The notes under the pieces were generated by a model. That model made no database searches and was not told where the DNA came from. It was given only the letters and a program-made list of their open reading frames with translations. Of a stretch of 64,000 bases of DNA, positions 4,146 to 61,748 are shown one piece after another. Each line of letters starts with the position of its first letter. Position 1 is the stretch's first letter. The stretch covers positions 1 to 64,000 of IMG/VR virus record IMGVR_UViG_3300031553_000354, one strand, 5' to 3'. The translations under genes and the position numbers were made by a program. The DNA comes from a virus.

Positions 4146-4154
4146 GGAGGACAG

Positions 4155-6289: not shown

Positions 6290-6336
6290 AAATTTTTCTG
6301 GGAAAAAATATAGTTAACGCGCGAAGAGGAAAGCAA

Positions 6337-8342: not shown

Positions 8343-8363
8343 TCTATCAAGAAAAGGAAAAAT

Positions 8364-9893: not shown

Positions 9894-9907
9894 ATGGAGA
9901 AAAATAA

Positions 9908-10507: not shown

Positions 10508-10566
10508 AGAGCTGATAGGAAATTAATATGGCTTGGAGCAGAAAATATAATAAATTGGAGGAATAA

Positions 10567-37545: not shown

Positions 37546-37584
37546 CTATTTGGAGGTATTGTGATAAAAAGAAGAAACATTTCA

Positions 37585-37640
37585 TAGCCCTCCAGCCAAA
37601 GTTGCAGGGGGGGCTAATTTCCCACAGCCCCTCTGCAACT
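37585..37640 (+). terminator. Two mutually exclusive hairpins after the tube gene
   Basis: AGTTGCAGGGGGGGCT (37600-37615) can pair with AGCCCCTCTGCAACT (37626-37640), a long G/C-rich stem with one bulge. The same G run can instead pair upstream: TAGCCCTCC (37585-37593) with GGGGGGCTA (37608-37616). Only one can form at a time. No T run follows, so this may be a terminator needing a factor, an RNA-processing or stability element, or an attenuator for the tube-like gene downstream. Confidence 0.5.
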
Positions 37641-37684
37641 GAAATAAAATTATGAAAAAAATGGTTTAAAAAATATAATAATTT

Positions 37685-38563: not shown

Positions 38564-38596
38564 ATTTATAACTTATTCATATTCAACGATTTATTA

Positions 38597-38629
38597 GGTG
38601 GATACAAATTTTGGTATCCGCCATTTTTT
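38597..38629 (+). terminator. Rho-independent terminator
   Basis: GGTGGATAC pairs with GTATCCGCC (nine base pairs, one G-T) around the loop AAATTTTG, followed by ATTTTTT. This is a textbook intrinsic terminator ending the sheath and tube unit. The next gene probably has its own promoter in 38630-38688, but I could not pick a convincing -35/-10 pair. Confidence 0.85.
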
Positions 38630-38688
38630 ATTCTTTTTGTGGGGAATTTGGTAATTTTGATAAATAATATTCATTAGAGGTATAAATC

Positions 38689-42179: not shown

Positions 42180-45100
42180 ATGTATCAAAATTATTCATAC
42201 GAACAAAGAGAAAATCTAGATTATAGGGATCGACAACTGCCCAGTCCTTTGAAAACTATAGGAGCTGGAGCATTTTCGCTTTTGGCTTTTGTAGTTATCA
42301 GAGGAGCTGCAATTCGTGGTTCTTCTGCTGCGAGTAAAGCTCTGTCTCGCAACTTGGGAAGAGTAGTAAGGTCGGTTGAAGGTGTGGCTTGGACAAAATC
42401 TTATAGAAATTTAAGAGCCGCCGCACTAACGAATGCCCGGGCTGAGGCTAGGCAATTCGGAGTATTAACTCCAAAAGATGTTGGAATTGCTGCTACGGTT
42501 AAAGAAATACCTTTAATTCAAAGAGCTCGAGCTAAATTCACAACTACTTTTGCTAAACAATTCAAAGCTAGACGGCAATATTATTATAGAGATTTAGGTC
42601 TGCGAGAAAAAGAATTATACGCAGCTCTAAAAGATGGTTATCATCCAAGAGCGCTTGATCAAAGACTGAAAGCATTAAAAACATTTATGAAGCCTGATGG
42701 AGCATTTTCTGCTCGTTTCATGGCTGCGGCTGGAAAATGGGGCGAGCGGTATGCGAAAATGATCCCAGGATTTTACGTTGCAGATCAAGCATTGGGATTG
42801 TTCGAAAAAGAAAGACCGGAACATCCAAAGCCGGCATGGTATAACATACCTGGACATGTTGCCGGAATGGTTAGATTTGGAATAGGATTTGCACCAATTG
42901 ATTTGGCATTTTGTGGCGCTCTTCGTTTTTTCAGATATGGTAGAGCTGTGGCGGCAAAAAGTGCTCAATTAGGAGTTCGTGAATTTCCACACGTAAGAGA
43001 AGGATTTACAAAAGCCGTTGAAACATTGCACGTAAAGGGTGCTCAATGGCATGCATCCATTTCCAAACATTGGGCCGCCCGCAGACATGGAGCTTGGCCT
43101 TCGATTCAAGAACTCAAACGGAGTATTAAAGAACGCAAAGCTCCGCATTCAATGGATATTGCTAGGCTGTATTCTGATATTGTGAAAGATGCTAAGGTCC
43201 AAAGGAAACCATATTTCCGAATGGAACAGCAGCTCAATCAAATTCTTGGCGTTCTTGGTATGAGAAAAGATCCCGAATTGCTTCGCGAAATGGCAGGAAG
43301 TACTGAAATCAAAAAAGCATTTCATGAAGTCCTTGGCAAATATGAGCGCCGTCCAACCCAAACATTTATAGAATATGCTCTTAAAACTCCACAACGCCCG
43401 GCAGATTGGGGCCCACGTAGGCTTTCAACTACGGCGCACATTAAAAGATATGCAAAGGAGGCTCATTGGGATCCGGAAACCACAAATAATGCTTTAAAAC
43501 TGCTTGGAGGGAAAGAATTATATTATGGTAAGAACATTCTTAGGAAGGGCAACTTTTCAATGTTCAATGCCAGTTTTACCGCTGGTAAGATAATAGATGT
43601 AATGGGGAAATGGAAGATGCCATTTATTAATTGGCATCCTTTCGAACGAATGATGATTACCGGAATTCCCAAGATAGGAATTCCGAGCAAAGGTTCCGCA
43701 TTTAGGATTCTTGATGAAAAACAATCTGCATTAATGGCCGAAGCAGCCATCGGTGCCGATTTAAATGTTACCAGATCTCCGCAACTTAAAATTGGGGAAT
43801 ATTTTATGAGGATTGGAGATCATGTTTTTAGATTTAGTCCTGAAAAACTTATTAAACGAATTAGCGGACATTGGAAAGTTAGCGTTGATACAATTACTGC
43901 TGGAGAAAGAAGACATTTCCAAGGTTTGGTTGAAAGCCAAACCGATTATAAACATACTGGCTGGCTAGGACATTTACGTCAAAAATTTGAATTAGGTCAA
44001 TCCCCCCATTTCATAGGACGACGACTTAAAGAGTTTGTGATCCAAGATTTTAACCCCGAAAGTCCGCATGTATTGATGAATGAAAAAGGAAAATTTGTGA
44101 ATATGCTCAAGCAGCTCCAAGGAGATAAGATCCTTAGTCCCAGGGAGCAAAAAGAATTCATAAATTATTCAAGGGCAGTGGGTCGGCATTTATATGGATC
44201 AGAACAAACAGCTTTAGAAATTTTCCATAATAATCAAGGTCTTAGAGGAAAAGTTCTTGATGTCTTAGGTGGCGTTGATGCAAAGAAAGCTAAAAAGATT
44301 TTAAATGATACAAATATAGATAAGGTAATTGATGATTTATCGCTATTTGATTATGCTTTGCCGGAAACATATTCCCAAAGAACTGTTCAGGAAGTGCGTA
44401 GAGCTCTCCATGATGTACAAAATCTCGTAGGGGCTGATCGAGAATTTTTATTGAGATCAAGAGCAACAGTTGTTGGTCAGGCTAGCAATTTGACTGTGCA
44501 AGATTATCTTATGGGACAATATTTTAAAAAAACATTAGAAAATTATAGTCAGGTCGGAAAAATTACCGAAGGCATGTATGATAAGATTTTCAAGTCAATT
44601 GATGATGCATTCATATCTAAAACAGAAAAGTCTAAGGCGAAATCACTGTTTGTTAGTATGAAAATTAATCATCCCATGGCTGATTATTTGAATCAAGAAG
44701 TTATCAATAGTTTGGATACTGTTGGACATCTTAAAGATATCATTGCTCCAAATGAAAATTTGCTTAGAGAAGTATTTAAACTGGATTATAAATCTCTTCG
44801 GGAATCTGTCAAGATAAATAGATTTATGCGGGATACTCTTATTCCTCTTGAAGTCCGAGGATATATGGGTCCCATAAATGAAATATGGAGAGTTCACGGC
44901 CGTGGAGCTCCATCTGCTCCGAAAGATCTTTTTGGTGCAGCCCCAGGATTCGGGGACATGATCAAAAGTGATTTTAAGAAATTTTTTAAAATTTCTGACT
45001 CCGCAACCCAAATAAATTATGAACCATATATTACTAAACAAAGTATGCTTCTCAATCGATGGGCAATTAGGCCATTCAATATGACATTAGGATGGATTGG

Positions 45101-48100
45101 TCTGGATTTACAATATAGGTCAAACGCTGAATTTATGAAAAAATTCCTGTGGAAACGCGCTTTGGCTATTCCCGCTGCTATTTATGGTTACCGCGCTATT
45201 GATACTTTCCTAACCGTAAATCCACTTTTAGACCATACCATCTTTGATGACGGATTGACATCTGCTGGAGCCCAGGCAATTGGAAAAGCAAATATTGCAA
45301 GAGCCGAAGTATTTGATACATTGGGAATAACAGATTTTGCCCAATATATGGAAGGCCTCATGCCTGGATCCGTGGAATCTCCTGCCGCAAAATTAATCAG
45401 AGGAGCCGTCCTTCCAATTTTGGGGAGAAGATTTGGTGGGGGACCAGGGCTTATGATTGGATTAGGAGCTTCTGCTGCAACAGGATTTGGGCTTCCCGAT
45501 TTGACAAACACGGCAGATGAACTTCGAGATATATATTCAGGAAGAAAGCTAACCCCGGTTCGCAGCGGCAGGTTCTGGGAAACTTCCAAGCTATCTTATT
45601 TTGGAGGAAGAATATCGTCATTCCAGCCATCGTGGTACACAAAGATTGTAAGCCAATATAAATATACGGACGCCGCATTGGGAACCAAATTGGAATCACT
45701 GCTTTATACCGGCCCATTGCAAGTATTAACTGATCCATATCATTATGAACGTTGCGTTACGCAGGATGCGAAAATTGTTATGGATGATGGAATTCCCAAA
45801 CCAATAAAAAAATTAGATATTGGTGATTATGTTTTGTCTCATGATGGCTATCCACATAAAATATTGAACATTTGGGATGCCAATATTGATGAACAAATAA
45901 TCAAAATTGTTACACATGGAGCCTGCAAATATCCAATATGTTCAACGAATGAACATCGGTATCTTACTATTAGAACGAAACAATGTCCGAAACGAAATAA
46001 CAGAATTGCTTATTGTAAAAAGCAATCATGGACAAAATGTAAAAATTGTAAATATAAATATTTTGAAAATTATGAAGTTCAATGGCTGCGCGCAGACGAA
46101 TTAAAATGTGGCGATTATTTAGCATATCCAAAACCTAAATTGTCGGAAAATTTATTTGAATTAGACATACCAAAGTTGCATAAACATTGGAATGGTCGGG
46201 CATGGATTCGTCCCCGGCAAAAATATGATATTCCAAACAAAGTTAAAATTACTCCAGAATTGTTTCGTCTATTTGGATATTATTTGGCTGAAGGTTGTAT
46301 ACAACAAAAACGTACTATAAAATTTTCGCTATGCATAGATGAAATGGATATTGTCAAGGATATTGACAATATTTGCAATAAATTATTTGGACTTAATATA
46401 ACTTATAGGAATACACCAGAACATAAAAGAATAGATGTATATCTAAGTAATTCTAGATTAGCAAAATGGTTTGAAATGTTTGGCCGTGGCGCAATCAATA
46501 AATCCATACCATCTGATTTGCTCAATGCGCCCAAAGATTGTTTGGAACAATTTATCGTGGGATTTTATCGTGGAGACGGAACATATAAAGGACATAATAT
46601 ATCAATTTCTGCTGCTACAATATCTGAACAACTCATAATGCAATTACGATATATCTTATTAGGTTTGGGGTATGTTCCCCACCTTAATGGCGCCAACGCA
46701 AATTCCAATAGTCGACCAAATAATATATATATGCTGGAAATTCATGGACAAGATGCCAATAAATTACGACAAATTATTGGCTGGCCAATCTCAAAAAATC
46801 CAATGCCGGATAAATATCATTGGTCGGATGAAAACTATATTTATTTTAAAATCAAAAATGTTGAACATATTGATTATATCGGTAAAATTTATGATTTAAA
46901 AATTGAAAATTCTCATTCATTTGTTTCTGTAAATGCCATATTACATAATACCCATTACTACGACCGACCATACCCAACAACGGCACCATTGTTTAGCGAT
47001 ATTCCGGTTGTCGGATCGCTCGCGGATATGACGATTGGTAGACTTTTAAAACCGCAGACCATGATGCACGAAGATGAATTAGAAGCGGCCCAGATGGGAT
47101 TTGATGTAGAAACGAAAGATCGGATTCTGCCCGGATATAATAGAAATACGATGCCACCGCTTCATGAAGCGCGTCCAGGCTATTTTGCTCCAAGACATAC
47201 GGTTCCATCAGTAAGTATGAAAGGAATGCTGGGAGAATCATTTTATAGACTTACTGAAGGTGCTGGATTGCGTGGGTTTATGACCCAATCATTGTTGGGA
47301 GTTGAAGGAATTGGCCAATATGCGCCGGTGTATGACGACGCATCTGCAATTACCAGTTTTGGACATCAATTTTGGGACATGCAGATTGGCGGAGGTTTGG
47401 CCACAGAAGCTTGGCGTCGTTTATATCCGCGGGAAAGATTTAAAAATTTGGTGAATCCGATCAGGAACCTCATGCCCACATGGTTACCCGAAGACTTTCA
47501 TTTTGGTGATCCATTCACTAAGATTAAAGGTGGATTAATCTTACTTCCTTCCCGAGCCCATGAAAAAATGTATAGAGTGAAGCGCGATTTTCCCATTTCT
47601 TTGGAATATTTTGGATATGAGCCAGGGGAAGCAGCCGGAAGACTATTGAAGTTAATTAGACCGGAAAGAGAAGAAGAATATCATTATTCATTTATTAAAG
47701 AATTGGTTCAAAAACAATTATTAATGAATCGGCAATTACTTACCAAAGATGTTCCACTTTTTGACCCTTGGTCCAAGTTGGAAGGGGCCGTTGATGCAGT
47801 AATCATGAATCAAAGCGGGCAACCAGAATTGATGCAAATAAAAGCAACAACTGCAGAAAAACTTGGATTTATGCAGCAGCCAAAACCGGCACATGTGTCT
47901 CAACTCAATTTTGCTATGAGGCAAATGAAGAAGCGATATGGTCAAATACTTTATGTCGCTGCAGATAATCCGGAATTGACTCAATCTTTTTATGTGGAAT
48001 ATAGTGCGGAACGATTTCATAATGATATGTTAAGAATGAATGAAGCCCGAAAATTAGCATCAGATATGCTACTTAAGGGAATTGGGCAAGTTGGTGAATC

Positions 48101-49391
48101 TTATTCCTATCCCGATAGGTTGCAAGTGCTTGCGAATACGGCGCCATGGTCAGACGAATACAAAAAAGTTTTGAAACAATGTAAATTATTAAAAAGGCAC
48201 GGCCTATTAGATGAAGAAGACCAGGTTAAAGTGGATGAATCTCAGAGACAACATGATGCAATTATGAGAAAATATGATTTTTATGAACACCGATTTTCCC
48301 ACAGCAAATGGCTAACTCCTAGTTCCGAATATAATTTAATGTCCCAAAATGAAAATATTAAAGCCGCCGCAAAATATAATATTGTTGAAAGATTAATGGG
48401 CGCGGCATGGGAACGACTACAAGAATTTAAAATGCCCGTTATATCTAGCAAACTTTTTCCATATTATACAAGTGAAGAAATGTACGAGCGTCAAATTGGA
48501 GGTAGTTTTTCTGGAAATTGGTCTAGACCCATTCATGATTATATAAGACCATGGTGGCATAGTTTTTTGCTATCAACGGGTCCTGTCGAATCTGCAGCGA
48601 AACTCGGATTCGCAGGAGGAATGTTTGGGGGACCCCCAGGTGCTGCTATTGGTGTAGGGGCGGGACTGTTGTATGGCGCTGGAAGAAGTGCTACCGGAGC
48701 GGGCACTTGGGTTCCAGGAGAAGTTAAAAGAATTCGGGAAATTGATGAATATTTCGATGCTTTAGAATATATAAAAAATCAACAATTGTATGAACAAACC
48801 GGAGATCCGGAATATCTTAAACGCTCAAGAGAAACAATTTATGGCGTTACTCCAATGAGCACTCCGGCGGAATTTTATAGATCAGCCCCATATATGGAAC
48901 GACCATTTTTCTGGTCATTTGCTTCCGTTCGAGACAAAACTCAACAAGATAGAATTAAACAAAGAGTTTCGCCAACTATGAGAAAACTTTTAGAATTTTA
49001 TTGGTCTGGAGATAAGAAATTTACCAATCCCATGATAGAAGATTACAATCCAGGATTTCGAATGCCAGCAGAAGATTGGATGGGATGGAGAGAAGATATC
49101 CCATTGGAAGATATCCAGGTTAAAACTGTTAAAATGGAGGGCTACGATGCCCACGATTTTGGATTGGGATGGAAGCCTCAAGAATTAAGAATGCATAATT
49201 CTCCATATGCGATCAAGCCAATAGATATTTCCAGTCCTTCGGGGATTTCTTATGGCCAAGAAAATTTGGATGCCATTGATATAAAGAATTTCATTCAGAA
49301 TGTTTTACAGAGATATGGCATAACGAATGCAAATATAACTGTTACAAAATCACAAGGCAAAGGCGCCACCATTTCTTTGAATATTAGTTAA
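42180..49391 (+). CDS. Giant tail-region protein with intein and PD-(D/E)XK-like domain
   Basis: A 2403-residue precursor. Removing the intein (residues 1192-1590) leaves ~2004 residues. The N-terminus has a hydrophobic segment (GAGAFSLLAFVVIRGAAIRG), then long basic helical stretches and more hydrophobic segments before the intein. Near residues 1840-1940 is a RecB/Cas4-type nuclease pattern: Asp1872 in AVDAVIM, Gln1886-Ile-Lys1888 where the motif expects E-x-K, then HVSQLNFAMRQ and ILYVAAD. Further hydrophobic Gly-rich segments follow (~residue 2140). It lies where the tape measure is expected and could be that, or a DNA-ejection/cargo protein. Weak ribosome site. Confidence 0.7.
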   Translation: MYQNYSYEQRENLDYRDRQLPSPLKTIGAGAFSLLAFVVIRGAAIRGSSAASKALSRNLGRVVRSVEGVAWTKSYRNLRAAALTNARAEARQFGVLTPKDVGIAATVKEIPLIQRARAKFTTTFAKQFKARRQYYYRDLGLREKELYAALKDGYHPRALDQRLKALKTFMKPDGAFSARFMAAAGKWGERYAKMIPGFYVADQALGLFEKERPEHPKPAWYNIPGHVAGMVRFGIGFAPIDLAFCGALRFFRYGRAVAAKSAQLGVREFPHVREGFTKAVETLHVKGAQWHASISKHWAARRHGAWPSIQELKRSIKERKAPHSMDIARLYSDIVKDAKVQRKPYFRMEQQLNQILGVLGMRKDPELLREMAGSTEIKKAFHEVLGKYERRPTQTFIEYALKTPQRPADWGPRRLSTTAHIKRYAKEAHWDPETTNNALKLLGGKELYYGKNILRKGNFSMFNASFTAGKIIDVMGKWKMPFINWHPFERMMITGIPKIGIPSKGSAFRILDEKQSALMAEAAIGADLNVTRSPQLKIGEYFMRIGDHVFRFSPEKLIKRISGHWKVSVDTITAGERRHFQGLVESQTDYKHTGWLGHLRQKFELGQSPHFIGRRLKEFVIQDFNPESPHVLMNEKGKFVNMLKQLQGDKILSPREQKEFINYSRAVGRHLYGSEQTALEIFHNNQGLRGKVLDVLGGVDAKKAKKILNDTNIDKVIDDLSLFDYALPETYSQRTVQEVRRALHDVQNLVGADREFLLRSRATVVGQASNLTVQDYLMGQYFKKTLENYSQVGKITEGMYDKIFKSIDDAFISKTEKSKAKSLFVSMKINHPMADYLNQEVINSLDTVGHLKDIIAPNENLLREVFKLDYKSLRESVKINRFMRDTLIPLEVRGYMGPINEIWRVHGRGAPSAPKDLFGAAPGFGDMIKSDFKKFFKISDSATQINYEPYITKQSMLLNRWAIRPFNMTLGWIGLDLQYRSNAEFMKKFLWKRALAIPAAIYGYRAIDTFLTVNPLLDHTIFDDGLTSAGAQAIGKANIARAEVFDTLGITDFAQYMEGLMPGSVESPAAKLIRGAVLPILGRRFGGGPGLMIGLGASAATGFGLPDLTNTADELRDIYSGRKLTPVRSGRFWETSKLSYFGGRISSFQPSWYTKIVSQYKYTDAALGTKLESLLYTGPLQVLTDPYHYERCVTQDAKIVMDDGIPKPIKKLDIGDYVLSHDGYPHKILNIWDANIDEQIIKIVTHGACKYPICSTNEHRYLTIRTKQCPKRNNRIAYCKKQSWTKCKNCKYKYFENYEVQWLRADELKCGDYLAYPKPKLSENLFELDIPKLHKHWNGRAWIRPRQKYDIPNKVKITPELFRLFGYYLAEGCIQQKRTIKFSLCIDEMDIVKDIDNICNKLFGLNITYRNTPEHKRIDVYLSNSRLAKWFEMFGRGAINKSIPSDLLNAPKDCLEQFIVGFYRGDGTYKGHNISISAATISEQLIMQLRYILLGLGYVPHLNGANANSNSRPNNIYMLEIHGQDANKLRQIIGWPISKNPMPDKYHWSDENYIYFKIKNVEHIDYIGKIYDLKIENSHSFVSVNAILHNTHYYDRPYPTTAPLFSDIPVVGSLADMTIGRLLKPQTMMHEDELEAAQMGFDVETKDRILPGYNRNTMPPLHEARPGYFAPRHTVPSVSMKGMLGESFYRLTEGAGLRGFMTQSLLGVEGIGQYAPVYDDASAITSFGHQFWDMQIGGGLATEAWRRLYPRERFKNLVNPIRNLMPTWLPEDFHFGDPFTKIKGGLILLPSRAHEKMYRVKRDFPISLEYFGYEPGEAAGRLLKLIRPEREEEYHYSFIKELVQKQLLMNRQLLTKDVPLFDPWSKLEGAVDAVIMNQSGQPELMQIKATTAEKLGFMQQPKPAHVSQLNFAMRQMKKRYGQILYVAADNPELTQSFYVEYSAERFHNDMLRMNEARKLASDMLLKGIGQVGESYSYPDRLQVLANTAPWSDEYKKVLKQCKLLKRHGLLDEEDQVKVDESQRQHDAIMRKYDFYEHRFSHSKWLTPSSEYNLMSQNENIKAAAKYNIVERLMGAAWERLQEFKMPVISSKLFPYYTSEEMYERQIGGSFSGNWSRPIHDYIRPWWHSFLLSTGPVESAAKLGFAGGMFGGPPGAAIGVGAGLLYGAGRSATGAGTWVPGEVKRIREIDEYFDALEYIKNQQLYEQTGDPEYLKRSRETIYGVTPMSTPAEFYRSAPYMERPFFWSFASVRDKTQQDRIKQRVSPTMRKLLEFYWSGDKKFTNPMIEDYNPGFRMPAEDWMGWREDIPLEDIQVKTVKMEGYDAHDFGLGWKPQELRMHNSPYAIKPIDISSPSGISYGQENLDAIDIKNFIQNVLQRYGITNANITVTKSQGKGATISLNIS
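45753..46949 (+). mobile_element. Intein with LAGLIDADG endonuclease (399 aa)
   Basis: In-frame protein insertion. It starts at Cys1192 (CVTQDAKIVMDDGIPKPIKK, block A) with LDIGDYVLSHDG. Block B CSTNEHRYL supplies the histidine that assists the first step. The endonuclease core has LFGYYLAEGCI and FIVGFYRGDGTY. The end IYDLKIENSHSFVSVNAI then LHN is block F plus His-Asn. The next extein residue is Thr. All residues expected for self-splicing are visible, so the flanks YHYER and THYYDRP would be joined. The insertion point looks like a tightly constrained, aromatic Pro-rich segment. Confidence 0.9.
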
Positions 49392-49393
49392 TT

Positions 49394-52300
49394 ATGCCAA
49401 TTATTTACGATTCAGAAGAAGACCAGTTTCACGACAGGCATGGATATCTATTTCCATCTGTCTTATTGGGTGGCGGGTTCATGGCGTGGAAAAAATATTA
49501 TGGATCTCCACAGCTTGGAAGAAAATTTTCTCCCCGCGCATTCATAGGATTTGTCAAAGATCTAAGCCCCCAAGATTATATGAGGAAATATCTTACAAGG
49601 CCGGATAAACCAGAGCTCCCACTTCAACGCAGGCTGGTGGAAACAGCAGTAGAATACGAAAAAAGCAAATCGGTAGTGGAGTTTCTTACCGACGCGGATT
49701 TGAAAACTATTCGCGAAATCGGCAAAGCCATACCAACTCCAATTAAAGCAGAGGAGATGGAATTTAAACGCCAAGTAATTAGGCGATTTAATCCAGCAAC
49801 TTATGATTTGGTAAGAACTAATTTGGAAAAAACTCAGGAAGTTTTTAATGAATTGCTCGAAAATGTCGAAGAATCTAAACATTTGCAAAGTGTTCTCAAA
49901 CAACAACTTGAGCGATATAGATTTAGAAAATCCCGCCTACTTATACATTCAAAATTTTCTGAAATTATTAATCCAGAAATGTTGAAAAGCGAAGCAGAAC
50001 AAGCAGTTTTGATGAGACAATTGCAGGATACGCAAAAGAAACAAACTCAGGAAGCTAGAAGGCTCGCACAAATACTTCAAAGGGAATCTCCAGAAACTAT
50101 AGTAAATCTAAAAATTCCAAAAGTTTTGGAGCGAGTTGATCCAGCTATTATGATAGATGAAAGACGAGCAAGATTCCAACCTGCAGGTAAAACAATTAGT
50201 GATACGGGTGTTAAATTATCTTATACAGGATATAAATCATTTCTTCAGAAGCTCAGAAGGGCAAGAGTTGATTCCAAAGCTATCGCCGCAATTGAAACTA
50301 TAGATCCGCTATTGAAACAGCATTTAAATGAGCTTGCTCACACAAAAGCCCAAATTACATATGCATTGCGAGATAATGCGTTCAATTTGCAAGCTGTAAT
50401 CAAATTATCTATTCAGGTCAAAGAAGAAGGCAAAAGAGAAGTTGTTAATTTGAAAATCCCCCTTACTCGCGGCGGAAGATTAAGAATCAATGGGACGGGC
50501 TATATCCCCCAAAGATATAAGGGCATTAGGCCACTCATTCCTGAAATAGAACGAATTGAATCCGATATTTATGAATCGATGATTCGCAATTTGAATAAAA
50601 GATTTAAAAGCGAAGTTTGGCATAAAGTAATGGAAGGAGATGTTCAGGGTGGAGAGCGATCTATTAATGCATTAATTAAAGAACCAATTGGTGAAAGATT
50701 AATCATGGAATCTGGGCGTCCGGCGCACGATTTTATTGAACAAAATATAGTTCAGGATGCTAGGCTCGGCTACCTATCACAACAATTTGGAAATGACGAA
50801 CATATTGTTCTTGATCGGTTCAAAAAAATGCAAAAACTTAAATTGCTTTTATTGGAAGGCGATGGAAAATTAAAACTGCCAAATAGATATGCATTTATAG
50901 ATTTTGAAACATTTGGAACGAAAACAAATTTCCTTCCGCATCAAGTGACTGTGGGCATAATCGAAAATGGTGCAGTTGTTGATTGGTATACAGGAAAAAT
51001 TGATCCTCGAAGTATTAATATCAATTATACTTTCCCGGAAGTTGATTTAAAACTATCATTCAAAGGAAAAACAAGAGAACAGGTCATAAAAGAATTTACC
51101 GAAATGGGTCAACCCATTAGCAAAGTTCGAAGAGATTTAGAGGATTTTTTAAAAAAACATGCAAAAGGGGGAAAGCTTCCAGTTGCTGCATGGAATGCCG
51201 GATTTGATGTTGATAGAGTGATGGGTCAGCAATTTTTAGGAGCCAAAGCATATTTAGGAGAAACTTGGGATCCAATGGATCTCCAAAAAGCTATTGATCC
51301 AGATGTCCAAGCCTCGGTTTCTCTTAAATCTGTTGGACAGTCGCGAAAAATCTTTATTCCAATTTCCTCAAAAAAAGATTTGACTCTTAATAAGAAAATT
51401 ATTGAATTATTTAAAAAAGATCATAATCTGATGTCCATTTTAAAAGATAAGGATCCCGGATTTCATGGTAAATTAATGAAAGCAGTTTCCGAGAAACAGA
51501 TAAGAAATATAGTGATGCATGAAGCATCAATTGATGTACTTATAGCAAACAAAGTTTTCCAAGATATTACGAAAGACATTAATTTGCATTCCGCTGTGGT
51601 GATGCGCGATTTGAATGCAATGTTATTGACTTATCATCGGGCGCTAACCCATTCAATAAATCCCATAGATATTAATCATTGGACTACCAGAGCATTGGGA
51701 CATAATTTTCTATCTCTTTCCCCTCGTCAAATTTTACAAGGTAAATTTACGAAGTTTGATGTCAGAGATTTAGCTCCTCTTTCAAGATTAGGTATAGATC
51801 CAACCCGGCCATTTTATCAGCAATGGGCATCTGCACATTTGATCACCAAAGATGTTCCTGATCTAGTTACAAAAACTTATAAGAAAATTGCCGATAAATA
51901 TGGCGAGCTCTTCAAATCGATGGATACGCTGACAATTTTTAATCCATTAACTGCAGAAAATGCTGGATTAATAGATTTTCAGACCGCAGATGAAATGGCA
52001 ATCAAAACCGGAACAAAAGTCGTTAGAATCCCCCATACAGGCAAATTGAAACTCATACCGGAACTCAAAGAAGCCTTTGAGCAAATAAAATCGGCAAAGA
52101 CTCCGAGAGGTCGCGAAATAGTTTTATCGAAGTTAAGACAGAAGATGGCAAAAAGCTACCAAAAGGGATTTCATTTTAAAGAATGGCTGCCGGGATTTAC
52201 TTTACTTGGAGAAGCAGAAGGATTTACATTTAATACTTCAACGCCGATGATGTCGACAATTGAAAATATCGAATATAATAATGAAAATAAAGAAATAGCT

Positions 52301-55300
52301 ATACGCCTTCAAACCGCCAGCCGTCCTGAAAAATATGGGCATCCGATGAAAGTTTTTGCATATCCATACAAAGGGATGTTAACTCCCATAGAGGGATTAA
52401 GATCGATTACTTGGGTTGACGCTGTCCTTCGCAAGGATCTTGCGAAGCGCGGCAGAATGTCAGTCATGTTGGGCCAAATTCAAAGGTTAACTAGGAATTT
52501 CCAGGCTATTCATTCGAAGTTAACCCCAGCTCAAACATTCCAGTTTTTTGAAACAGTTAAAACTTTTGTGGATAAAATAAATTCTATGGGTGGCATCAAA
52601 CTAAATTGGCAAATCAACAAAGGTATGCTTCAATTTATAGATGAAATAACTGGCAAAGAATGGCAAAAATTGGATGTCGGAAAGATTGAAAAAAATTGGT
52701 TGCAATTTTCTGACGGTGAATGGGTCAAATTCATGAAAGAATATTCTCAAAAAATCCGCCATATGATGATTTCATTTGGGATTAAATATTCCAGGCATGA
52801 TCCTCGCTTGCCTTATTGGACTCAAGGTCAAATCGAATCAATGTTATCAACTGAATGGGGTCGACGGTATCCCAAAAAATTAGTATTTGCTGATTTGTCT
52901 CGGGCTGAACAAAATTTATTCCGGGAAAGAATAGAAGTAGAAATGCATGAACAGTTATCAAAAAGTGAATTATCCAAATTTTTCACCAAAACGGAATTGG
53001 AGCGTTGGAAATCGGGAACGTTAATGAAAGGCCATCTTTCTTTGATTCAGCTCTTTGGTGGTTCTTGGGGAATATTGGAAGTTACTCCAGCATCAAGAGC
53101 ATATGAAGCTGGGGAATTATATGCTAAAGGTGCAGATATAAAAGTTCCCCGATTGGATGAACTAGTTGTGTCGGGGCCAATAGCCCAGAGAATCGCGCGC
53201 ACATTTACGGGCGAACAGCGCGATATGATGAACTATATGTCAAATATCCAACCGCTTTTGAGATATGGAGTTTTGCCGGAATCTCATTATCCAATCATAA
53301 AAGCTTCAGAAATAAAACTTGATCCCATAACTACTCATTTAGGATTTAGAGAAGAAATCGGCATAATAGAAGATAAATCATTTAGAATTAAATGTGTTGA
53401 AACTGGTGAAATTTTTAATTCTCTTGAGGAAGTTCCGGATCGTTATTTGAAACAATATACATTAAGACCTATGGGAATGAACGCTTACATGCATCCTAAA
53501 ACTTTAGAAACGATGTATGGACAGCAACCATCCATAGTAGAATTCAATATAGGAAAAAAGAAAATTTATCTTCCTAGGCCGGCATTATCATTTATTAGGG
53601 GAGCTCCGGCAAAGGTCACGAAAAGTGGTGATCCCTATACCATAGTTGGAAAAGAGATTCAAACGTTTAAAAACCTATTAGTTGAAGCCGCAGATTACGA
53701 GAAGATTAAGGGGGATGAGGCTAAACGCCTATTTGAAAGAAAGTTCTTTTCAAGAGTTGAAGATTATAAAAATATGATATTAACAGATAAAGCCGCATAT
53801 ATAAAAATGACCCAACCAACGATTCCTGGAGTTCAAGGCAAGATTTCCATGGCATTTGCCCCAGGAATGGCTAAATCACTGGGACTGCCACAAGATATGT
53901 TTAGTCATATAACTACAGGATTTGGAGTGCAAGGGGTATCTGTAGAATCGATGGGCGAAGAATATTTTAGTAAAGCCATGGATGCCCATCAGGTGAAAGA
54001 AGGAGTAAGTATTGGAAAATATAGGGGCGCCACTGGATCGATTTATCTGGATAAATTGGCATTTAGGGAAGCTCTTCTCGAAGGTAAAGAATTACTTGCA
54101 GGAACTATTATTAGAACTCCCGCAGAAAACCGATTCGCATTTTTTGATACGTTAGTCACTGTGAAGAAAGATCAAGCGGCTGGAATGCGACTCCAACTTA
54201 GAGAAGCGATTACAACTCATTATGATTATGATGGAGACATAGGGCGTTTAGTATTTGCAGATTTTTCTCCCCAGGAACAAGAGCAGGGTTTGAAAGATCT
54301 TATGAATAAACAACACATTGATCGAGAAACCCATGCTACATTAGCTAAAAGAATTAAAAAGCTTCAGGAAAATGTTCTTGAATATGAAACTGGCAAAGAC
54401 GCAGCAACCAAAAAACATATTGTCAAAGAACTTGAACAAATTCAAGAACTTGAAAAAACAATGAATGTCAATGTCTATGGTCAAGGTATTTGGGTAAGGG
54501 AAGCCAGACCAGCAGCAACTCCAAAAGAAATTAAATTGGGAATCGGCGATGAAATGAGATTTCGGAAAATGAATTTGCATCAATTTATGAAGGAATTGCC
54601 ATCTATTGATCTTCCAGAAAGATTAATCAAATTGCCCGGCGAAGAATTGAGGCAACATCTTTCTAATATGCTTACGAAAACTGCCACAGCTTACTCCTAT
54701 CGAAAAGCAATGACAATGCGGGCAGCTACTAAATTATTTGGCGGGAAATTAACTGAAAAATATTTGGATTTATATAATGAACTAGTTGGAAAAGTTACTG
54801 CATTCAAAAAAGTTCCATATGAAAAAGCAGAGCAAATTACTCGGGCATTGTTAGAACCAGAAGCTGGAGAATCAAAGAAAATTATGGGGGAAGTTTTAAA
54901 TAAGGATGCAGAACAGCTTTGGCCCCAATTTAAAGAATGGCATGCCGCATTGAATCGCAGCATGATGAGGAAAGAAGTTAATGACCTAATTAGTTCTGGA
55001 ATGAAACGCTCTCCAATTACTGGTGGACAATTGGCATTATGGGGCCCAAGTGTAGAACTTCCCGGAACAAAGAGTCGCGCGATTTTAGATTTTTGGGGCA
55101 AAGAAAAATTCCTCGATAGCTTTAAGCGGCATGGAAAAAAAGGCGGCCTTGCAATAGCATTGGCCGCTCTTGTTGCGCCAATTTTTTTGCCACATGATAA
55201 TTCATATGATAAAGAAGGATATCCGATAATACCGACCAGCTTCAATGTGGCCCAGCCGGTATTTCCAGCACCTATTCACGTAGTACCAAATGATCCAACA

Positions 55301-55426
55301 ACTTATCCCGTAAGGACATTTAAACCTCAGATTGTAGATCCGCTACTTATTAACTTTGGTTCTGACAATAATTTAACAACGAGACGAAATAGTGGTCGAT
55401 ATCCAAATAAGTTGAAAAATTACTGA
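49394..55426 (+). CDS. Giant protein: DEDDh exonuclease plus two-barrel RNA polymerase-like core
   Basis: A 2010-residue chain. Residues ~495-720 carry a DnaQ-type exonuclease: Asp503/Glu505 in FIDFET, Asp605 in AWNAGFD, His709 and Asp714 in MHEASID. At ~960-1030 GHPMKVFAYPYKGML and KRGRMSVMLGQI resemble the RNA polymerase beta-subunit barrel (lysines 986, 993). At ~1480-1640 GKISM, LGLPQDMF, RTPAENR (Arg1574) and HYDYDGDIG (Asp1611/1613/1615) follow the beta-prime order G-R-S, GLP, R-x-P-T-x-x-R, DFDGD, with near-normal spacing. This suggests a single-chain polymerase, perhaps packaged in the virion. The first ~490 and last ~350 residues are unassigned; the last has a hydrophobic LAIALAALVAPIF. 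Comparisons are by eye. Confidence 0.75.
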   Translation: MPIIYDSEEDQFHDRHGYLFPSVLLGGGFMAWKKYYGSPQLGRKFSPRAFIGFVKDLSPQDYMRKYLTRPDKPELPLQRRLVETAVEYEKSKSVVEFLTDADLKTIREIGKAIPTPIKAEEMEFKRQVIRRFNPATYDLVRTNLEKTQEVFNELLENVEESKHLQSVLKQQLERYRFRKSRLLIHSKFSEIINPEMLKSEAEQAVLMRQLQDTQKKQTQEARRLAQILQRESPETIVNLKIPKVLERVDPAIMIDERRARFQPAGKTISDTGVKLSYTGYKSFLQKLRRARVDSKAIAAIETIDPLLKQHLNELAHTKAQITYALRDNAFNLQAVIKLSIQVKEEGKREVVNLKIPLTRGGRLRINGTGYIPQRYKGIRPLIPEIERIESDIYESMIRNLNKRFKSEVWHKVMEGDVQGGERSINALIKEPIGERLIMESGRPAHDFIEQNIVQDARLGYLSQQFGNDEHIVLDRFKKMQKLKLLLLEGDGKLKLPNRYAFIDFETFGTKTNFLPHQVTVGIIENGAVVDWYTGKIDPRSININYTFPEVDLKLSFKGKTREQVIKEFTEMGQPISKVRRDLEDFLKKHAKGGKLPVAAWNAGFDVDRVMGQQFLGAKAYLGETWDPMDLQKAIDPDVQASVSLKSVGQSRKIFIPISSKKDLTLNKKIIELFKKDHNLMSILKDKDPGFHGKLMKAVSEKQIRNIVMHEASIDVLIANKVFQDITKDINLHSAVVMRDLNAMLLTYHRALTHSINPIDINHWTTRALGHNFLSLSPRQILQGKFTKFDVRDLAPLSRLGIDPTRPFYQQWASAHLITKDVPDLVTKTYKKIADKYGELFKSMDTLTIFNPLTAENAGLIDFQTADEMAIKTGTKVVRIPHTGKLKLIPELKEAFEQIKSAKTPRGREIVLSKLRQKMAKSYQKGFHFKEWLPGFTLLGEAEGFTFNTSTPMMSTIENIEYNNENKEIAIRLQTASRPEKYGHPMKVFAYPYKGMLTPIEGLRSITWVDAVLRKDLAKRGRMSVMLGQIQRLTRNFQAIHSKLTPAQTFQFFETVKTFVDKINSMGGIKLNWQINKGMLQFIDEITGKEWQKLDVGKIEKNWLQFSDGEWVKFMKEYSQKIRHMMISFGIKYSRHDPRLPYWTQGQIESMLSTEWGRRYPKKLVFADLSRAEQNLFRERIEVEMHEQLSKSELSKFFTKTELERWKSGTLMKGHLSLIQLFGGSWGILEVTPASRAYEAGELYAKGADIKVPRLDELVVSGPIAQRIARTFTGEQRDMMNYMSNIQPLLRYGVLPESHYPIIKASEIKLDPITTHLGFREEIGIIEDKSFRIKCVETGEIFNSLEEVPDRYLKQYTLRPMGMNAYMHPKTLETMYGQQPSIVEFNIGKKKIYLPRPALSFIRGAPAKVTKSGDPYTIVGKEIQTFKNLLVEAADYEKIKGDEAKRLFERKFFSRVEDYKNMILTDKAAYIKMTQPTIPGVQGKISMAFAPGMAKSLGLPQDMFSHITTGFGVQGVSVESMGEEYFSKAMDAHQVKEGVSIGKYRGATGSIYLDKLAFREALLEGKELLAGTIIRTPAENRFAFFDTLVTVKKDQAAGMRLQLREAITTHYDYDGDIGRLVFADFSPQEQEQGLKDLMNKQHIDRETHATLAKRIKKLQENVLEYETGKDAATKKHIVKELEQIQELEKTMNVNVYGQGIWVREARPAATPKEIKLGIGDEMRFRKMNLHQFMKELPSIDLPERLIKLPGEELRQHLSNMLTKTATAYSYRKAMTMRAATKLFGGKLTEKYLDLYNELVGKVTAFKKVPYEKAEQITRALLEPEAGESKKIMGEVLNKDAEQLWPQFKEWHAALNRSMMRKEVNDLISSGMKRSPITGGQLALWGPSVELPGTKSRAILDFWGKEKFLDSFKRHGKKGGLAIALAALVAPIFLPHDNSYDKEGYPIIPTSFNVAQPVFPAPIHVVPNDPTTYPVRTFKPQIVDPLLINFGSDNNLTTRRNSGRYPNKLKNY

Positions 55427-55649: not shown

Positions 55650-58600
55650 ATGAAAACATATCATCCACTTGAATTTGCTCCTGGAGTACATGGCGGTTAT
55701 GATAACCCCGATGATGCTAGAGATATAGTTCAGCCCCTTCTTGACCTATTAAATTATTTGAATCGATGGTGCCAAGATCAAGGGATGAATCATATTATTA
55801 TTACCTCTGGAAAACGGGGGGCAGAATATAATGCTCGCATTGGAGGGAGTCTAACAAGTTATCACCTAACAGGACATGCAGCAGATATTGCAGTAATTGG
55901 GCGATATAATAGATGGGAACAAGCAATAATTTATAATTGGTTGCATACTTTATATACTAAACAGCTTGCCCAAGTTATATATCATGGCACTGGTGGCAAT
56001 TATCATCTGCATATAGGAATTCGCAAGGGATCTGAAGGAATGGGCCCGCTTTTGGAAACTGAAAGCAAAAGTGAAGGAATTATTGAAGAAAAAAAGCCTG
56101 GAACCAATCCTTGTAGCATTGTAAGTGATAATATCACGGGATATACTGAAATAATTGCAACTCAAATACCGCTTGATATTTATAAAACAAGCTATAAATT
56201 GCTTCAGGATGTTACTGAAGAAGAAAAAACTGATCCATTGCTTGCATTGGCGCAGAAGCCGGGATCATTTAAATTTGGAACCATCTGGGTGACTGTGCCT
56301 CCTACATCAATTGCTTTTACCGAACAAAACAACATTGTTGGAATTCCAACTCTTCGCACCAAGGGCAACGTATATTGGAGAACCGGCACCAATTCAATAA
56401 ACATAGATCTTGAATTTTTATTTCCAGGACTGATTCAGATTAATGATGAATTGAGACACATAGTCGCCCAAATTAAAAGGTGTCCATTTTTACCTTTCGA
56501 AAATTATTATTTGCATTCATTAATATTTCCAGAATTAAAATCTGCTGAGCCCCAACCAGATATTCCATACGAATTTACCACGGAAGAAAAACCGCAATAT
56601 GAAAAACAAACTGGCACCCAAGATAGACTTCAGCAGCAGCAATGGCGATTGAAGAACAAAAAGATCATGGATATAGTCAAATCCGGTGATGAAAAAAGCT
56701 TGAAAGAATTTATTGAAAATGGCAAAAAACATGGATATTTTACTCAAGATACTGAATCCCAAGAAGATAGAAAAAGAAGGACCGAACAGCTCGAAAAGCT
56801 TCAAGAATGGATGAAAAAATATAGGCATATTGACGTAGATGATACTAGTGGATTGAGCTATAGAGATCAACAAATGATAGCAGCGATACGGTCAATATCG
56901 ATTTCTTCCGTTCCGGGATTTCCCAAAACCCTTCAAATGAATTGTTCCTGCGATATTTTTAATTATTTTCCTTATACATCTGCATTTAGTTTTATAGAAG
57001 ATGAAACAAAAAAAGACACTCCAGTTTTCAATATTTCCAAAAGCGCCCTGTTTGGGAAATATTACAAAGGAATGCTTACCAGGAATAATGCGCAAGAATT
57101 TAAAACCGCATTTGAATCGACAACGAAATTGGAAGCAGTTGGGTCTGATGAGCGCATGGATTATCTGTATTTAAGATATATTTATTCTGAGGAAATAAAA
57201 AATCGATCAATATTGGCCCAGAGAGCAATATTAGAATATATACAGGCGATTAAAAATTTCGGAGAAAGCTATGAGGCAGCCCCGGCCGCAGAATTATATC
57301 AAAATCTTTTTATATTTCTTACGCATCCCAGCTTCGGGGGCTGGCAAAATTTGGCTGATGTGCCCGGGAATGTGGTAGATGCTGTAAAAGAATTAGGAGA
57401 AGATGCCGTAATTGCAGGAAAAAGTATTATTGCTGTAATAAAATTTTATCAAGATTCCTTTGGAGAATATTTACTTGGAATAAGCGCGAACGATGAAATA
57501 TATGTCATAGGTACCAGAAAAGGAAGAGAATATTTCCTTCCGCTTAAAGATGCAGTTAGAAATCCTCAATATCGGGCGAAATTATTATCTTATATTAAAG
57601 AATATTCAGTTAAAATCAGTTCGTTACAATATAATCAGCGGGATTTAAAATTTGGAGATCAGGATTCTCAGATAGTTGGAATTTCGGCATCAACGCAAAC
57701 GAAGCTTGTGCCCATGAATATATTGGCATTTACAAAGCCTACTTTTCAACATCTCGGAAATTCAGAATGGGTCGTCACATTGACAATTGAAACATCAAGT
57801 CCAAATTTGATAAGAGAACTCCGCATGATGACCGAACGGCTTAATCAAACTGCATTATCACAGATTGCAGTATTGCCGGAAATTCGGGATTATGCAGATC
57901 TTTCTGCGCAAATTGTTGAAGGTCCATTTTTCAAACTTCTAGGAATAGAAAATGTAATTCCTGGCAATTTTAGATATTCGACGGTGGAAGGAAAGCCGGG
58001 CATATTTCATATTCAAATCGATTTTGTACAATCTGATTTGCAATTGAAAACATATGAAGCGCTTCAAGTTCCAGCATATTTCCCATCTGATTTTATTAAG
58101 CATTTTATTAAGCTGATTCCAACTTCAGTGCTTAATCATATTTCTTCAAAGCTTGAAACTGATTGGGATAATTACCACATGGTTCACGAATATAAAGTTG
58201 GTATTCGTCCCTTATCTCAAGCATTAGAAAGTTATCCAAGATGGTCCAAATTTTTATTTTACCTGTGTAAACCGATTCCAAAATCTTTATGTTCAGAATC
58301 AATTCCGGTATATAAATTTATTCTTAATAATATAGATTCTGAATTGCTTGCGAAAAAACAAGAAGAAGATTTATTTAAATGGGATTATAAAGATATTCTT
58401 GCTTATGCTGGTACATATTTTGTTGCAAAATTCAAAGAAGGCCCAGGTCCCATCGCAGACATAAAGGCTCATTCAAGCGCATTGGCGGCAAAATTCACAT
58501 TTACAAATTTGCTCAATACTACAATATTTGCAGCATATAAAGGGGCCGTTGGGCGCCAATTAAAAGCAATATTAAATGAAGCTTTAAATAAAGAAAATGT

Positions 58601-61600
58601 TCCACCTCAATTAGAAATTGATTCAACAGAAAACGGTCAAAGGCTTCTTGAACTATTGCGAGAATATCAAAACCGGCTTCATATTAGGAATTCGACGTAT
58701 CCAGATCTAGAACTCCCAGTTGTTGCAGATTCTCCCGATTTTTGGTTTTTCCGAGAGCCATTATATAATGACACCATTCAAGAATTTGCCAATGCCATAG
58801 TCGATATACATGAAGATACAGCTCTTGAATTAGCAGAACTGAATTCTGCTAATAAACGTGGAAAAGCAACGATGCATTCGGCTAAATTAAGACAAATAGC
58901 TAAAGAAGCTAAAGTCGGAGAAATTTTAGTTTCACAAAGACTTAAAAAAGTCCTACTGGACTATTTGGGAGACGCGAATGAAGACTTGCAATTCAATATG
59001 GAACGATCTAAAGATCTTAAAGAAAATGCAAATCTTATGATGGAAATAAAAAAGAGCGAATCCCAAAAATATTTAGGACGGGCGGATGAAGCAACGCTAC
59101 GGAGCAGATTGGCAAGAATCGAAGACGATATGAGATATTATGATGAATCAATAGGTGTTATCAATATAAAAGAATTGGATGATGTAGATTTCAATAATCC
59201 GGGTGATTTGTTGGATGTGGCAACAACTTTGGCAAAAACCTGGGGCATTTATACTCCAAGAGATGCTCAGCTTGAACGACAGATGCTTCAAGACGCTATG
59301 AAACTTGATGAAAATAAAACCTTAAGACTAGGGCGAGCATTCCCAACCTTTAAATTATATTTCATAGAAAAAGATAAAGAAGAATGGTTACTATTCGATG
59401 ATTTTTATGGATATGATGCAGTGAAGGAAATTCAAATTAGAAAGACCCGAAAATCTCCGATTCACACTGCGATAGTTACGTTGTCGAATATCACAAATGT
59501 GCTTCAAGATATTCATGCCCCAAGGAGTGAAAATATTTCAAAATCAGAAACTGCGGAAGAACAGCCAAATGTTGATTCTATGATGCTTCAAGAAGGCTGT
59601 GAAATCATGATCAAAATGGGTTATGAAAATGATTCCAACAAATTAAAAATTGTGTTTCAAGGATCTATCGTGAGCATACAGCCCGGCCCGGAACTGCAAT
59701 TTATTGCACAAGGATGGGGTGCGGAGCTTGCTCAGCCAATTCAGAATTTCAGTGTTGGAAAATGGAGCACAATAAGAGACTTCGGAGATGTATCAACCGC
59801 AATCTTAAATAAAGTTTCTGGATTAAGACATTTTGGAACAACGTATAATTTAGTGGAAATATTTGATGATTTGCCAAATGTTCAATATAATTCTGATCAT
59901 CGGGAAACATATGTTGGTAGATTGAAGAATTGGTCACTTCAAGGATTGGGATTAAATCCACTGCTTGATCATAGAGACGATAATATTTGGCTGCCATATC
60001 ATACTCCTCCGACAATTTGGCCGCTGGTCCACATCATAGAGGGAAAAGGATTTGCATTTGATTGGAGAGTATATAATAAAACTGGTTGGGAGGCACTTGA
60101 TGAGGTATTAAAGTACATGCCAGGATATATTATGAAAATTTTGCCTTATAATGAAGAGAATTTGCAATCTGCCAGATGCACATTATATATAGGTCCAAGA
60201 GATGGTTATTATATGGCAACGGATGATTCAGAAATTGTCGAAAGAACATCGGAACATGATAAATATCAAGAAGGAAGAAATAGATGGTATATACGTATTA
60301 AGGGCGTGAAAGCCCCAACAAAGCAGGAATTAATAATCAAATTAAAAAAGTTTAATGTAGATTATGAAGGCAGTGTACTTTTTAAAAAATTTGTGGATCG
60401 AAATATTGTTTGCCAAAATGGCGAATGTAGTTTGATGAAAGCAACTCCATTTAATCCGATAGTTGCTTATTGGAGCGAAGCACTACTTGGGGGAGGAGAA
60501 GAATGCCCCAGGATCAATCAGGCCTATTTTGCAAGAGAATATTTTGATATTTTACAAGGATCTGGAATAATGCGTGGCATTATGATATATGACGCTTATG
60601 ACAAACTTCATTTCGGAGATTTTAAAAGAGTCTATGGCAAAGCTAGCCTTTTTGAACGAATGACTGAAGGAGTAGAAAGATTTACCTATGGGAAAGATGA
60701 TAATCCTAAAAGGTTGGCTGGAAAACATGGTTGGAAGCGCGCATGCAAAACTCATTTTATTGATAGTTATCATCATATAATTGAAAATAATATGAAAGCT
60801 TCGCGCGAAAATATGTACAATAAAGTTCATTTAATTTATCCAAAGGGCGAACCTCAGATGGCAGCATTTGAAACGCAATTTTCAGCTGGAGATTTATCTG
60901 AATTCGAAATGCTTGCGGATGATAACATAAAGCCTGATATGATAAGAACCCATAAACTATTTTTTACAAACATAGACGTTGATCGAACAAGAAATTTTGT
61001 GGATTCAATCAAAGCCATTCTTAAAGGCATCGGAGAAACCGTTGGACTTAATAGTCGCGGTAATTTTCCTGATATTCCGCCATATGCTGTAGTTGCGAAT
61101 ACAATACTCGCTGAAGATCTTAAAGATATGTATGACGGAGAAATTATCATATTACTCGATCCAAATATTGATGTACATGATGCCGTTTATATATATGATG
61201 ATGTAAATGAAATTTATGGCCCAGTTGGGGTGAAAGAAGTTTACCATTACTTTTCCATGGAGCATGGGGCTTATACTGTGATTGTGCCGGATCTTATGTC
61301 ATATCCCAGCAATCTAGAACAAACTGTTGAATTGGGCTATGCTTCAGCATTATATGCCGCATTAGTTAAAATAGTTCTTGGTGGAATCATATTTGGCGGA
61401 GGGGCTTCACTTCTTGCTGGACAATTACTTGGACCATGGACTGGAATAGGAGTTGCAGGGTTTACTGCAACTTTTACATATAAATTAGCTTCATCCATAG
61501 GTTCTGGTGGGATAAATAAACTTATGGGAAGAGAAGGATCGGAATTTGTGCCAATATGGAGAAAAGGTGCCCCATTTCTTGCGGGAATGGATGGATACAG

Positions 61601-61748
61601 AAAAGATGATCTTGTGGTTCATTATATGGATAAAATTACTCGAATAAGTGGAACATTTAAACAATTGAGTGCAAGTTTGATGGGATTAAGGGATAAGCCG
61701 GAAGGCACCCAAATGCCATTGCCGCTTCTTGACTATAGGAGGGAATAA
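55650..61748 (+). CDS. Baseplate hub-type giant protein with N-terminal M15 peptidase
   Basis: A 2032-residue protein. The N-terminal ~125 residues are an M15-type D-Ala-D-Ala peptidase: TSYHLTGHAADIA matches S-x-H-x-x-G-x-A-x-D (His72, Asp79) and YHLHIG gives His121, the zinc set. Around residue 1310 LQEGCEIMIKMGYEND and FQGSIVSIQPGPE resemble tail-hub proteins of the gp27/gpD type. Near residues 1897-1950 there are Gly-rich hydrophobic segments (KIVLGGIIFGGGASLLAG). The likely role is a tail-tip hub that also digests the cell-wall peptide. The rest is unassigned. It ends just before the spike gene. Confidence 0.75.
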   Translation: MKTYHPLEFAPGVHGGYDNPDDARDIVQPLLDLLNYLNRWCQDQGMNHIIITSGKRGAEYNARIGGSLTSYHLTGHAADIAVIGRYNRWEQAIIYNWLHTLYTKQLAQVIYHGTGGNYHLHIGIRKGSEGMGPLLETESKSEGIIEEKKPGTNPCSIVSDNITGYTEIIATQIPLDIYKTSYKLLQDVTEEEKTDPLLALAQKPGSFKFGTIWVTVPPTSIAFTEQNNIVGIPTLRTKGNVYWRTGTNSINIDLEFLFPGLIQINDELRHIVAQIKRCPFLPFENYYLHSLIFPELKSAEPQPDIPYEFTTEEKPQYEKQTGTQDRLQQQQWRLKNKKIMDIVKSGDEKSLKEFIENGKKHGYFTQDTESQEDRKRRTEQLEKLQEWMKKYRHIDVDDTSGLSYRDQQMIAAIRSISISSVPGFPKTLQMNCSCDIFNYFPYTSAFSFIEDETKKDTPVFNISKSALFGKYYKGMLTRNNAQEFKTAFESTTKLEAVGSDERMDYLYLRYIYSEEIKNRSILAQRAILEYIQAIKNFGESYEAAPAAELYQNLFIFLTHPSFGGWQNLADVPGNVVDAVKELGEDAVIAGKSIIAVIKFYQDSFGEYLLGISANDEIYVIGTRKGREYFLPLKDAVRNPQYRAKLLSYIKEYSVKISSLQYNQRDLKFGDQDSQIVGISASTQTKLVPMNILAFTKPTFQHLGNSEWVVTLTIETSSPNLIRELRMMTERLNQTALSQIAVLPEIRDYADLSAQIVEGPFFKLLGIENVIPGNFRYSTVEGKPGIFHIQIDFVQSDLQLKTYEALQVPAYFPSDFIKHFIKLIPTSVLNHISSKLETDWDNYHMVHEYKVGIRPLSQALESYPRWSKFLFYLCKPIPKSLCSESIPVYKFILNNIDSELLAKKQEEDLFKWDYKDILAYAGTYFVAKFKEGPGPIADIKAHSSALAAKFTFTNLLNTTIFAAYKGAVGRQLKAILNEALNKENVPPQLEIDSTENGQRLLELLREYQNRLHIRNSTYPDLELPVVADSPDFWFFREPLYNDTIQEFANAIVDIHEDTALELAELNSANKRGKATMHSAKLRQIAKEAKVGEILVSQRLKKVLLDYLGDANEDLQFNMERSKDLKENANLMMEIKKSESQKYLGRADEATLRSRLARIEDDMRYYDESIGVINIKELDDVDFNNPGDLLDVATTLAKTWGIYTPRDAQLERQMLQDAMKLDENKTLRLGRAFPTFKLYFIEKDKEEWLLFDDFYGYDAVKEIQIRKTRKSPIHTAIVTLSNITNVLQDIHAPRSENISKSETAEEQPNVDSMMLQEGCEIMIKMGYENDSNKLKIVFQGSIVSIQPGPELQFIAQGWGAELAQPIQNFSVGKWSTIRDFGDVSTAILNKVSGLRHFGTTYNLVEIFDDLPNVQYNSDHRETYVGRLKNWSLQGLGLNPLLDHRDDNIWLPYHTPPTIWPLVHIIEGKGFAFDWRVYNKTGWEALDEVLKYMPGYIMKILPYNEENLQSARCTLYIGPRDGYYMATDDSEIVERTSEHDKYQEGRNRWYIRIKGVKAPTKQELIIKLKKFNVDYEGSVLFKKFVDRNIVCQNGECSLMKATPFNPIVAYWSEALLGGGEECPRINQAYFAREYFDILQGSGIMRGIMIYDAYDKLHFGDFKRVYGKASLFERMTEGVERFTYGKDDNPKRLAGKHGWKRACKTHFIDSYHHIIENNMKASRENMYNKVHLIYPKGEPQMAAFETQFSAGDLSEFEMLADDNIKPDMIRTHKLFFTNIDVDRTRNFVDSIKAILKGIGETVGLNSRGNFPDIPPYAVVANTILAEDLKDMYDGEIIILLDPNIDVHDAVYIYDDVNEIYGPVGVKEVYHYFSMEHGAYTVIVPDLMSYPSNLEQTVELGYASALYAALVKIVLGGIIFGGGASLLAGQLLGPWTGIGVAGFTATFTYKLASSIGSGGINKLMGREGSEFVPIWRKGAPFLAGMDGYRKDDLVVHYMDKITRISGTFKQLSASLMGLRDKPEGTQMPLPLLDYRRE

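Follow-up and report, generated by a model that had tools for sequence, protein, structure and literature searches.

A putative two-barrel RNA polymerase core in a giant protein at the tape measure position of a contractile-tailed phage

The stretch analyzed here, called the window, comprises positions 1 to 64,000 of the 72,786-base IMG/VR virus record IMGVR_UViG_3300031553_000354, and all coordinates below refer to this 64,000-nucleotide sequence. A single open reading frame (ORF) on the plus strand (49394-55426) encodes a 2010-residue protein, giant2, that lies at the position of a tape measure protein (TMP) and carries a core resembling RNA polymerase (RNAP). Along its chain we recognize a DEDDh exonuclease-like domain, a putative beta-type double-psi barrel, a beta'-type double-psi barrel and a C-terminal hydrophobic helix, and we conclude that giant2 very probably belongs to the two-barrel RNAP superfamily. 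Genes for TerL, portal, major head protein and a 905-residue tail sheath, an endonuclease VII-like ORF and the gene of a second giant protein, giant1, are found upstream, and an M15-peptidase baseplate hub and a gpJ-type baseplate protein follow downstream. A preliminary description of this DNA had placed giant2 in the tail region of a contractile-tailed phage; this placement, here for an uncultured phage, is borne out by the portal, sheath, hub and gpJ-type baseplate genes around it.

The beta'-type barrel extends over residues ~1475-1640 (53816-54313, plus strand) and was assigned from profile, shuffle and alignment results. It contains the strings GKIS (1482-1485), GLPQDMF (1497-1503), RTPAENR (from R1574) and DYDGD (1611-1615), all of which are present where the preliminary description had placed them. 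R1574-T-P1576 (54113-54121, plus strand) corresponds to the R-x-P active-site motif and D1611-Y-D-G-D1615 (54224-54238, plus strand) to the catalytic metal-binding DxDxD motif. The step from R1574 to D1611 is indeed 37 residues, compared to 35 in the sequence of E. coli rpoC. When 18 sequences from 14 clusters including the window protein were aligned, the only invariant columns at 10-30% identity were the arginine, the proline and the three aspartates. In 62 relatives, giant2 has a D-x-D-x-D at a similar relative position; among the motif picks, the automatic positions for relatives L097 and L117 are wrong DxDxD motifs and the giant2 pick of L103 is its hub. An [RK]-x-P motif 35-60 residues upstream of DxDxD was present in 21 of 25 divergent representatives, with 2.1 expected.

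Searching all PDB sequences with the 18-sequence profile returned RNAP beta', Rpb1 or Rpo1N chains in all 60 listed matches, aligned in register, the best being the non-virion RNAP of phiKZ (E 3.7e-5), AR9 (0.0013) and an RPB1 homologue (0.0034). A blind search of 36 phage records with Pfam family PF00623 matched no protein other than giant2, which it hit at the motif in four of them (3.3e-5, 6e-4, 0.0037 and 0.017). A profile built from the 62 relatives without the window protein ranked the latter first (E 6.5e-4), and the next real proteins were P23-45 gp96 (E 0.32), gp64 and YonO, with insignificant E-values. The score of the window protein in this window-free profile was equalled by one in 1000 shuffles that retained DYDGD. 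Pairwise alignment of the window protein with E. coli beta' yielded matches at the level of shuffled sequences. Judged from these sequence comparisons, the beta'-type signature of giant2 exceeds chance. The earlier assignment of a beta'-type double-psi barrel with an intact catalytic triad is upheld by the window-free profile and the invariant residues, and the feature is family-wide.

AlphaFold models were calculated for the core of the relatives' cluster A (seven sequences) and for window residues 900-1665 (10 sequences). The 50 best PDB matches of the cluster-A core model in Foldseek were all RNAP subunits (best E 1.7e-3), and a BFVD search listed an entry of Acinetobacter phage ME3 second (1.2e-7). 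VIA-align gave Z scores of 8-8.7 for the cluster-A model, with rows at 2.7-3.0 Å over 94-104 residues; model residues ~712-828 were matched to the beta' barrel and the motif residues lie inside the matched range. As VIA Z scores near 8 are frequent for unrelated models, the weight of this fold match rests on the consistency of the list and on the motif inside the range. The VIA rows fall mainly within model residues 534-830, to which our conclusions on the fold are confined, and the beta'-type fold matched to the beta' barrel is a prediction from the relative's model only.

The putative beta-type double-psi barrel, at residues ~925-1040 (52166-52513, plus strand), is tentative. K986 (52349-52351) and K993 (52370-52372) lie in MKVFAYPYKGML, followed by TPIE and RGRMSVMLGQI. 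Cluster A has an invariant lysine pair, K312 and K319, with a spacing of 7, ~485 residues before DxDxD; relative to DxDxD, lysines are located at -482 and -476 in cluster B and at -483 in cluster D. Unsupervised MAFFT alignment of the window protein with cluster A lets K986 and K993 fall on this invariant pair with the same spacing of 7. E. coli beta was also considered as a pairwise match and was rejected, since its best match fell at an unrelated place and two of 300 shuffles reached the score. Giant2 probably possesses this second, beta-type barrel. Of the single-chain two-barrel core suggested earlier, the beta' half stood, and the beta half stays tentative, its lysine alignment being setting-dependent and without a profile match.

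N-terminal to both barrels, residues ~498-730 (50885-51583, plus strand) are predicted to form a DEDDh 3'-5' exonuclease-like domain. D503, E505, D605, H709 and D714 constitute an intact D-x-E, D, H-x4-D motif that is invariant in the three close homologues. Giant2 matches Pfam Rv2179c-like (E 4e-4, below the cut-off) and PHROG 192 (E 6e-4), and a DnaQ-like hint covers residues ~474-607. The DEDDh pattern recurs in cluster A, in Bacillus phage KLEB27-3, in Moorella phage MTATph1 and in several other groups. At the other end of giant2, hydropathy indicates a likely transmembrane helix (residues ~1917-1933; 55142-55192, plus strand) followed by a ~77-residue tail. A hydropathy peak ~95-140 residues before the C-terminus is shared by nearly all giant2 relatives, even by L106, L112, L092 and L114, in which the RNAP core is absent. 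Because the helix is kept without the core, the latter looks like an optional module in a conserved tail protein.

TerL and the hub group the window phage with MTATph1, KLEB27-3 and ME3, and the notes of the ME3 record point to Bacillus phage 0305phi8-36. The gene order giant1 - giant2 - hub is common to the window, ME3 and KLEB27-3, giant1 there being annotated as two genes, and MTATph1 shows the same order save for an insertion element. In MTATph1 (L006, 30512-37868), an IS21-like transposase/ATPase pair splits giant2 and leaves the exonuclease part; the DxDxD motif was not seen in the flanking pieces. Synteny with ME3 gp035-037 equates giant2 with ME3 gp036, and the KLEB27-3 homologue is annotated as a structural protein. 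In 0305phi8-36, orf146, which was assigned as tape measure from the tail length (PMC2147016), directly precedes the hub orf147 and thus occupies the giant2 position. The kinship with 0305phi8-36, ME3 and KLEB27-3, the DEDDh motif and the absence of the core in some relatives are not part of the preliminary description.

Two close giant2 homologues in IMG/VR (88 and 85% identity) keep R-x-P, DxDGD and both lysines. Relatives of the window protein were found neither by tblastn in 50,697 phage records nor by scanning genome contigs, and phmmer of the window protein against the relatives gave no match. Searches with DNA patterns, namely a degenerate one encoding the giant1 motif NPIRNxMPxW, a looser form of it and one for the hub, added about 60 further relatives. 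In the ~60 relatives, which keep the signature of R-x-P and DxDxD, giant2 is likewise flanked by a giant TMP-like protein and a T4gp27-like hub, and giant2 relatives form ~25 groups without phmmer links between them. In hhalign, the window protein showed only weak matches to relatives; the top ones, to clusters A, X and D, coincided with the catalytic motif or adjoined it. L103 (G043) apparently has no large giant2 ORF between giant1 and hub (2998-3604); the gene has possibly been lost or relocated. Bacillota are suggested as hosts of cluster A by its members L202 and L203, which sit on ~200-kilobase contigs in the genome assemblies of Paenibacillus sp. TCA20 and Oceanobacillus profundus.

Among the neighbouring genes, the 2403-residue partner giant1 (42180-49391, plus strand) contains an intein with a LAGLIDADG endonuclease (residues ~1187-1594) and a PD-(D/E)XK/Cas4-like nuclease match (residues 1866-1961); in giant1 of L020 and L058, the reading just past the NPI motif (GDPYC...) likewise resembles an intein start. 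The hub with its N-terminal M15 peptidase (55650-61748, plus strand) lies directly downstream of giant2, and the tail sheath (34156-36873, plus strand) matches phrog_16991 (E 1.9e-53). Three adjacent genes at 36892-40011 all match PHROG 9206, annotated as major head protein, and the corresponding place in KLEB27-3 is taken by three tail tube genes. A trypsin-like serine protease (19589-20440; Pfam Trypsin_2, 3.9e-11) is encoded just upstream of TerL. Further upstream are an ORF matching a resolvase-type helix-turn-helix, CENP-B_N and LAGLIDADG_3 (17041-18066) and a surface-glycan cassette (2509-12133) with PglD-type acyltransferase, NAD epimerase, DegT aminotransferase, pyruvyl transferase, glycosyltransferases and a methyltransferase.

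The preliminary description had compared giant2 with the giant polymerases of crAss-like phages. Since giant2 lies at the tape measure position of 0305phi8-36, phage P23-45 with its TMP-fused virion RNAP offers a better precedent, and the closest one (PMC10770324). By synteny with ME3 gp035-037 and 0305phi8-36 orf146/147, the RNAP core of giant2 shares its chain with a tail protein that presumably acts as tape measure. Like giant2 with its putative beta-type barrel, P23-45 gp96 has a single-chain two-barrel core with DxDGD in a giant protein at the tape measure position (PMC10770324). However, gp96 comprises 5002 residues, belongs to a long-tailed Thermus phage and carries the RNAP in its N-terminal part, whereas the 2010-residue giant2 of a contractile-tailed phage harbours it in the C-terminal half, behind the DEDDh exonuclease; gp96 was also only the marginal match of the giant2-family profile mentioned above. 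P23-45 encodes a second, non-virion RNAP elsewhere in its genome. A parallel exists in eight of 36 related records, G005 (two), G007, G008, G011, G020, G023, G025 and G036, which have separate ORFs of the RNA-dependent RNA polymerase (RdRP) family (PF05183) as candidate non-virion RNAPs. The window record and its two relatives, which are possibly incomplete, showed no such ORF. For 0305phi8-36, which belongs to the same lineage by synteny, orf146 is annotated only as tape measure and its likeness to giant2 comes from gene position; its RdRP-like RNAP orf99 (PMC2147016) parallels the separate RdRP-family ORFs.

Other known enzymes share single features with giant2. The virion protein gp66 of the crAss-like phage phi14:2 is likewise a single-chain two-barrel RNAP in a giant protein; it belongs to the Crassvirales, is annotated from tandem mass spectrometry as catalytic RNAP subunit, has the motif DFDID and was not among the ranked matches of the family profile. 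The RNAPs of phiKZ and AR9 show the same register of R-x-P and DxDGD and were the best matches of the family profile, but they are split into several subunits, whereas giant2 is one chain in a tail protein. YonO of SPbeta is a single-chain phage two-barrel RNAP with DxDGD as well; however, with 839 residues it is a stand-alone enzyme, its gene is not a tail gene, and it was a weak match of the family profile. A survey of jumbo phages reported no further RNAPs past group 1 and two YonO-like ones. As far as shown in the literature searched, TMP-fused virion RNAPs are known only from relatives of P23-45.

Taken together, we consider it likely that giant2 is a single-chain two-barrel enzyme of the RNAP superfamily within a tail protein, which is delivered with the virion and transcribes the first phage genes. 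Giant2 is probably a working RNA polymerase, and by analogy to P23-45 its delivery for early transcription appears rather more plausible than not. The beta-type barrel (residues ~925-1040) would supply two lysines, so that the chain may form a complete active site. Giant2 would be packed in the tail tube, ejected together with the DNA and anchored at or near the membrane via its hydrophobic helix, and it could transcribe the first phage genes while the genome enters, as has been proposed for P23-45 gp96 (PMC10770324). The separate RdRP- or YonO-like polymerase of some related phages could serve later genes.

Several results weigh against this interpretation. On its own, the window protein matched no RNAP in Pfam, PHROGs or PDB. 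The cluster-A core model has low global confidence (pLDDT, the predicted local distance difference test, 52; pTM, the predicted template modelling score, 0.27), and the model of window residues 900-1665 was uninformative (pLDDT 32) and was left out of the fold search. The lysine register was lost in most settings that added other clusters or longer flanks; with divergent clusters in the alignment, R-x-P held and the lysine register was usually lost. The cluster-A barrel profile did not find the window protein, and the cluster-A barrel segment had no RNAP match in PDB. Finally, giant2 of L106, L112 and L092 is without the RNAP core, and L114 is likewise listed as core-less; L106 is the nearest relative by hub, and its giant2 has 745 residues. 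As these relatives do without it, the core is dispensable for the role in the tail.

Such absences would fit a two-barrel fold kept for a structural role in the tail, with polymerase activity lost or vestigial, and the C-terminal helix that persists without the core and the unusual motif variants of some relatives, such as DTDRD, agree with this view. However, where the core is present, the three aspartates and R-x-P are fixed while the rest has diverged to 10-30% identity, which points to catalytic selection, and we regard a purely structural role as unlikely. Still less likely, giant2 could be a two-barrel polymerase that is brought in with the DNA for another job, as a PolD-like DNA polymerase, primase or repair enzyme, with the DEDDh domain as proofreader. 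That the window protein and those of several clusters carry an intact DEDDh motif within the same chain would fit, as would archaeal PolD, whose two-barrel enzymes are able to make DNA (PMC10770324); however, the listed sequence and structure matches are RNAP beta' subunits, and the DEDDh motif was not found in every barrel-bearing cluster. We give a small chance to a broader proposal, in which giant2 would be a virion-borne two-barrel polymerase with built-in DEDDh exonuclease, either a cis-proofreading RNAP or a two-barrel DNA polymerase accompanying the genome, across a large, mostly uncultured contractile-tailed lineage. A chance motif in an ordinary tape measure protein would agree with the missing significant database match of the window protein alone, but is highly improbable given the PF00623 matches, the window-free profile, the R-x-P spacing, the shuffles, the invariant residues and the PDB profile matches.

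The presented findings provide the lineage of ME3, KLEB27-3 and 0305phi8-36, which is large and little known, with a candidate virion RNAP in a protein hitherto labelled hypothetical, structural or tape measure. The set of RNAP cores is very diverse, with only R-x-P and the three aspartates fixed, and the fusion of an exonuclease to an RNAP core poses the question of its reason. The isolates KLEB27-3 and ME3 make the proposal of a virion RNAP testable. If true, P23-45 would be joined by a second example of transcription delivered through the tail, this time a contractile one.

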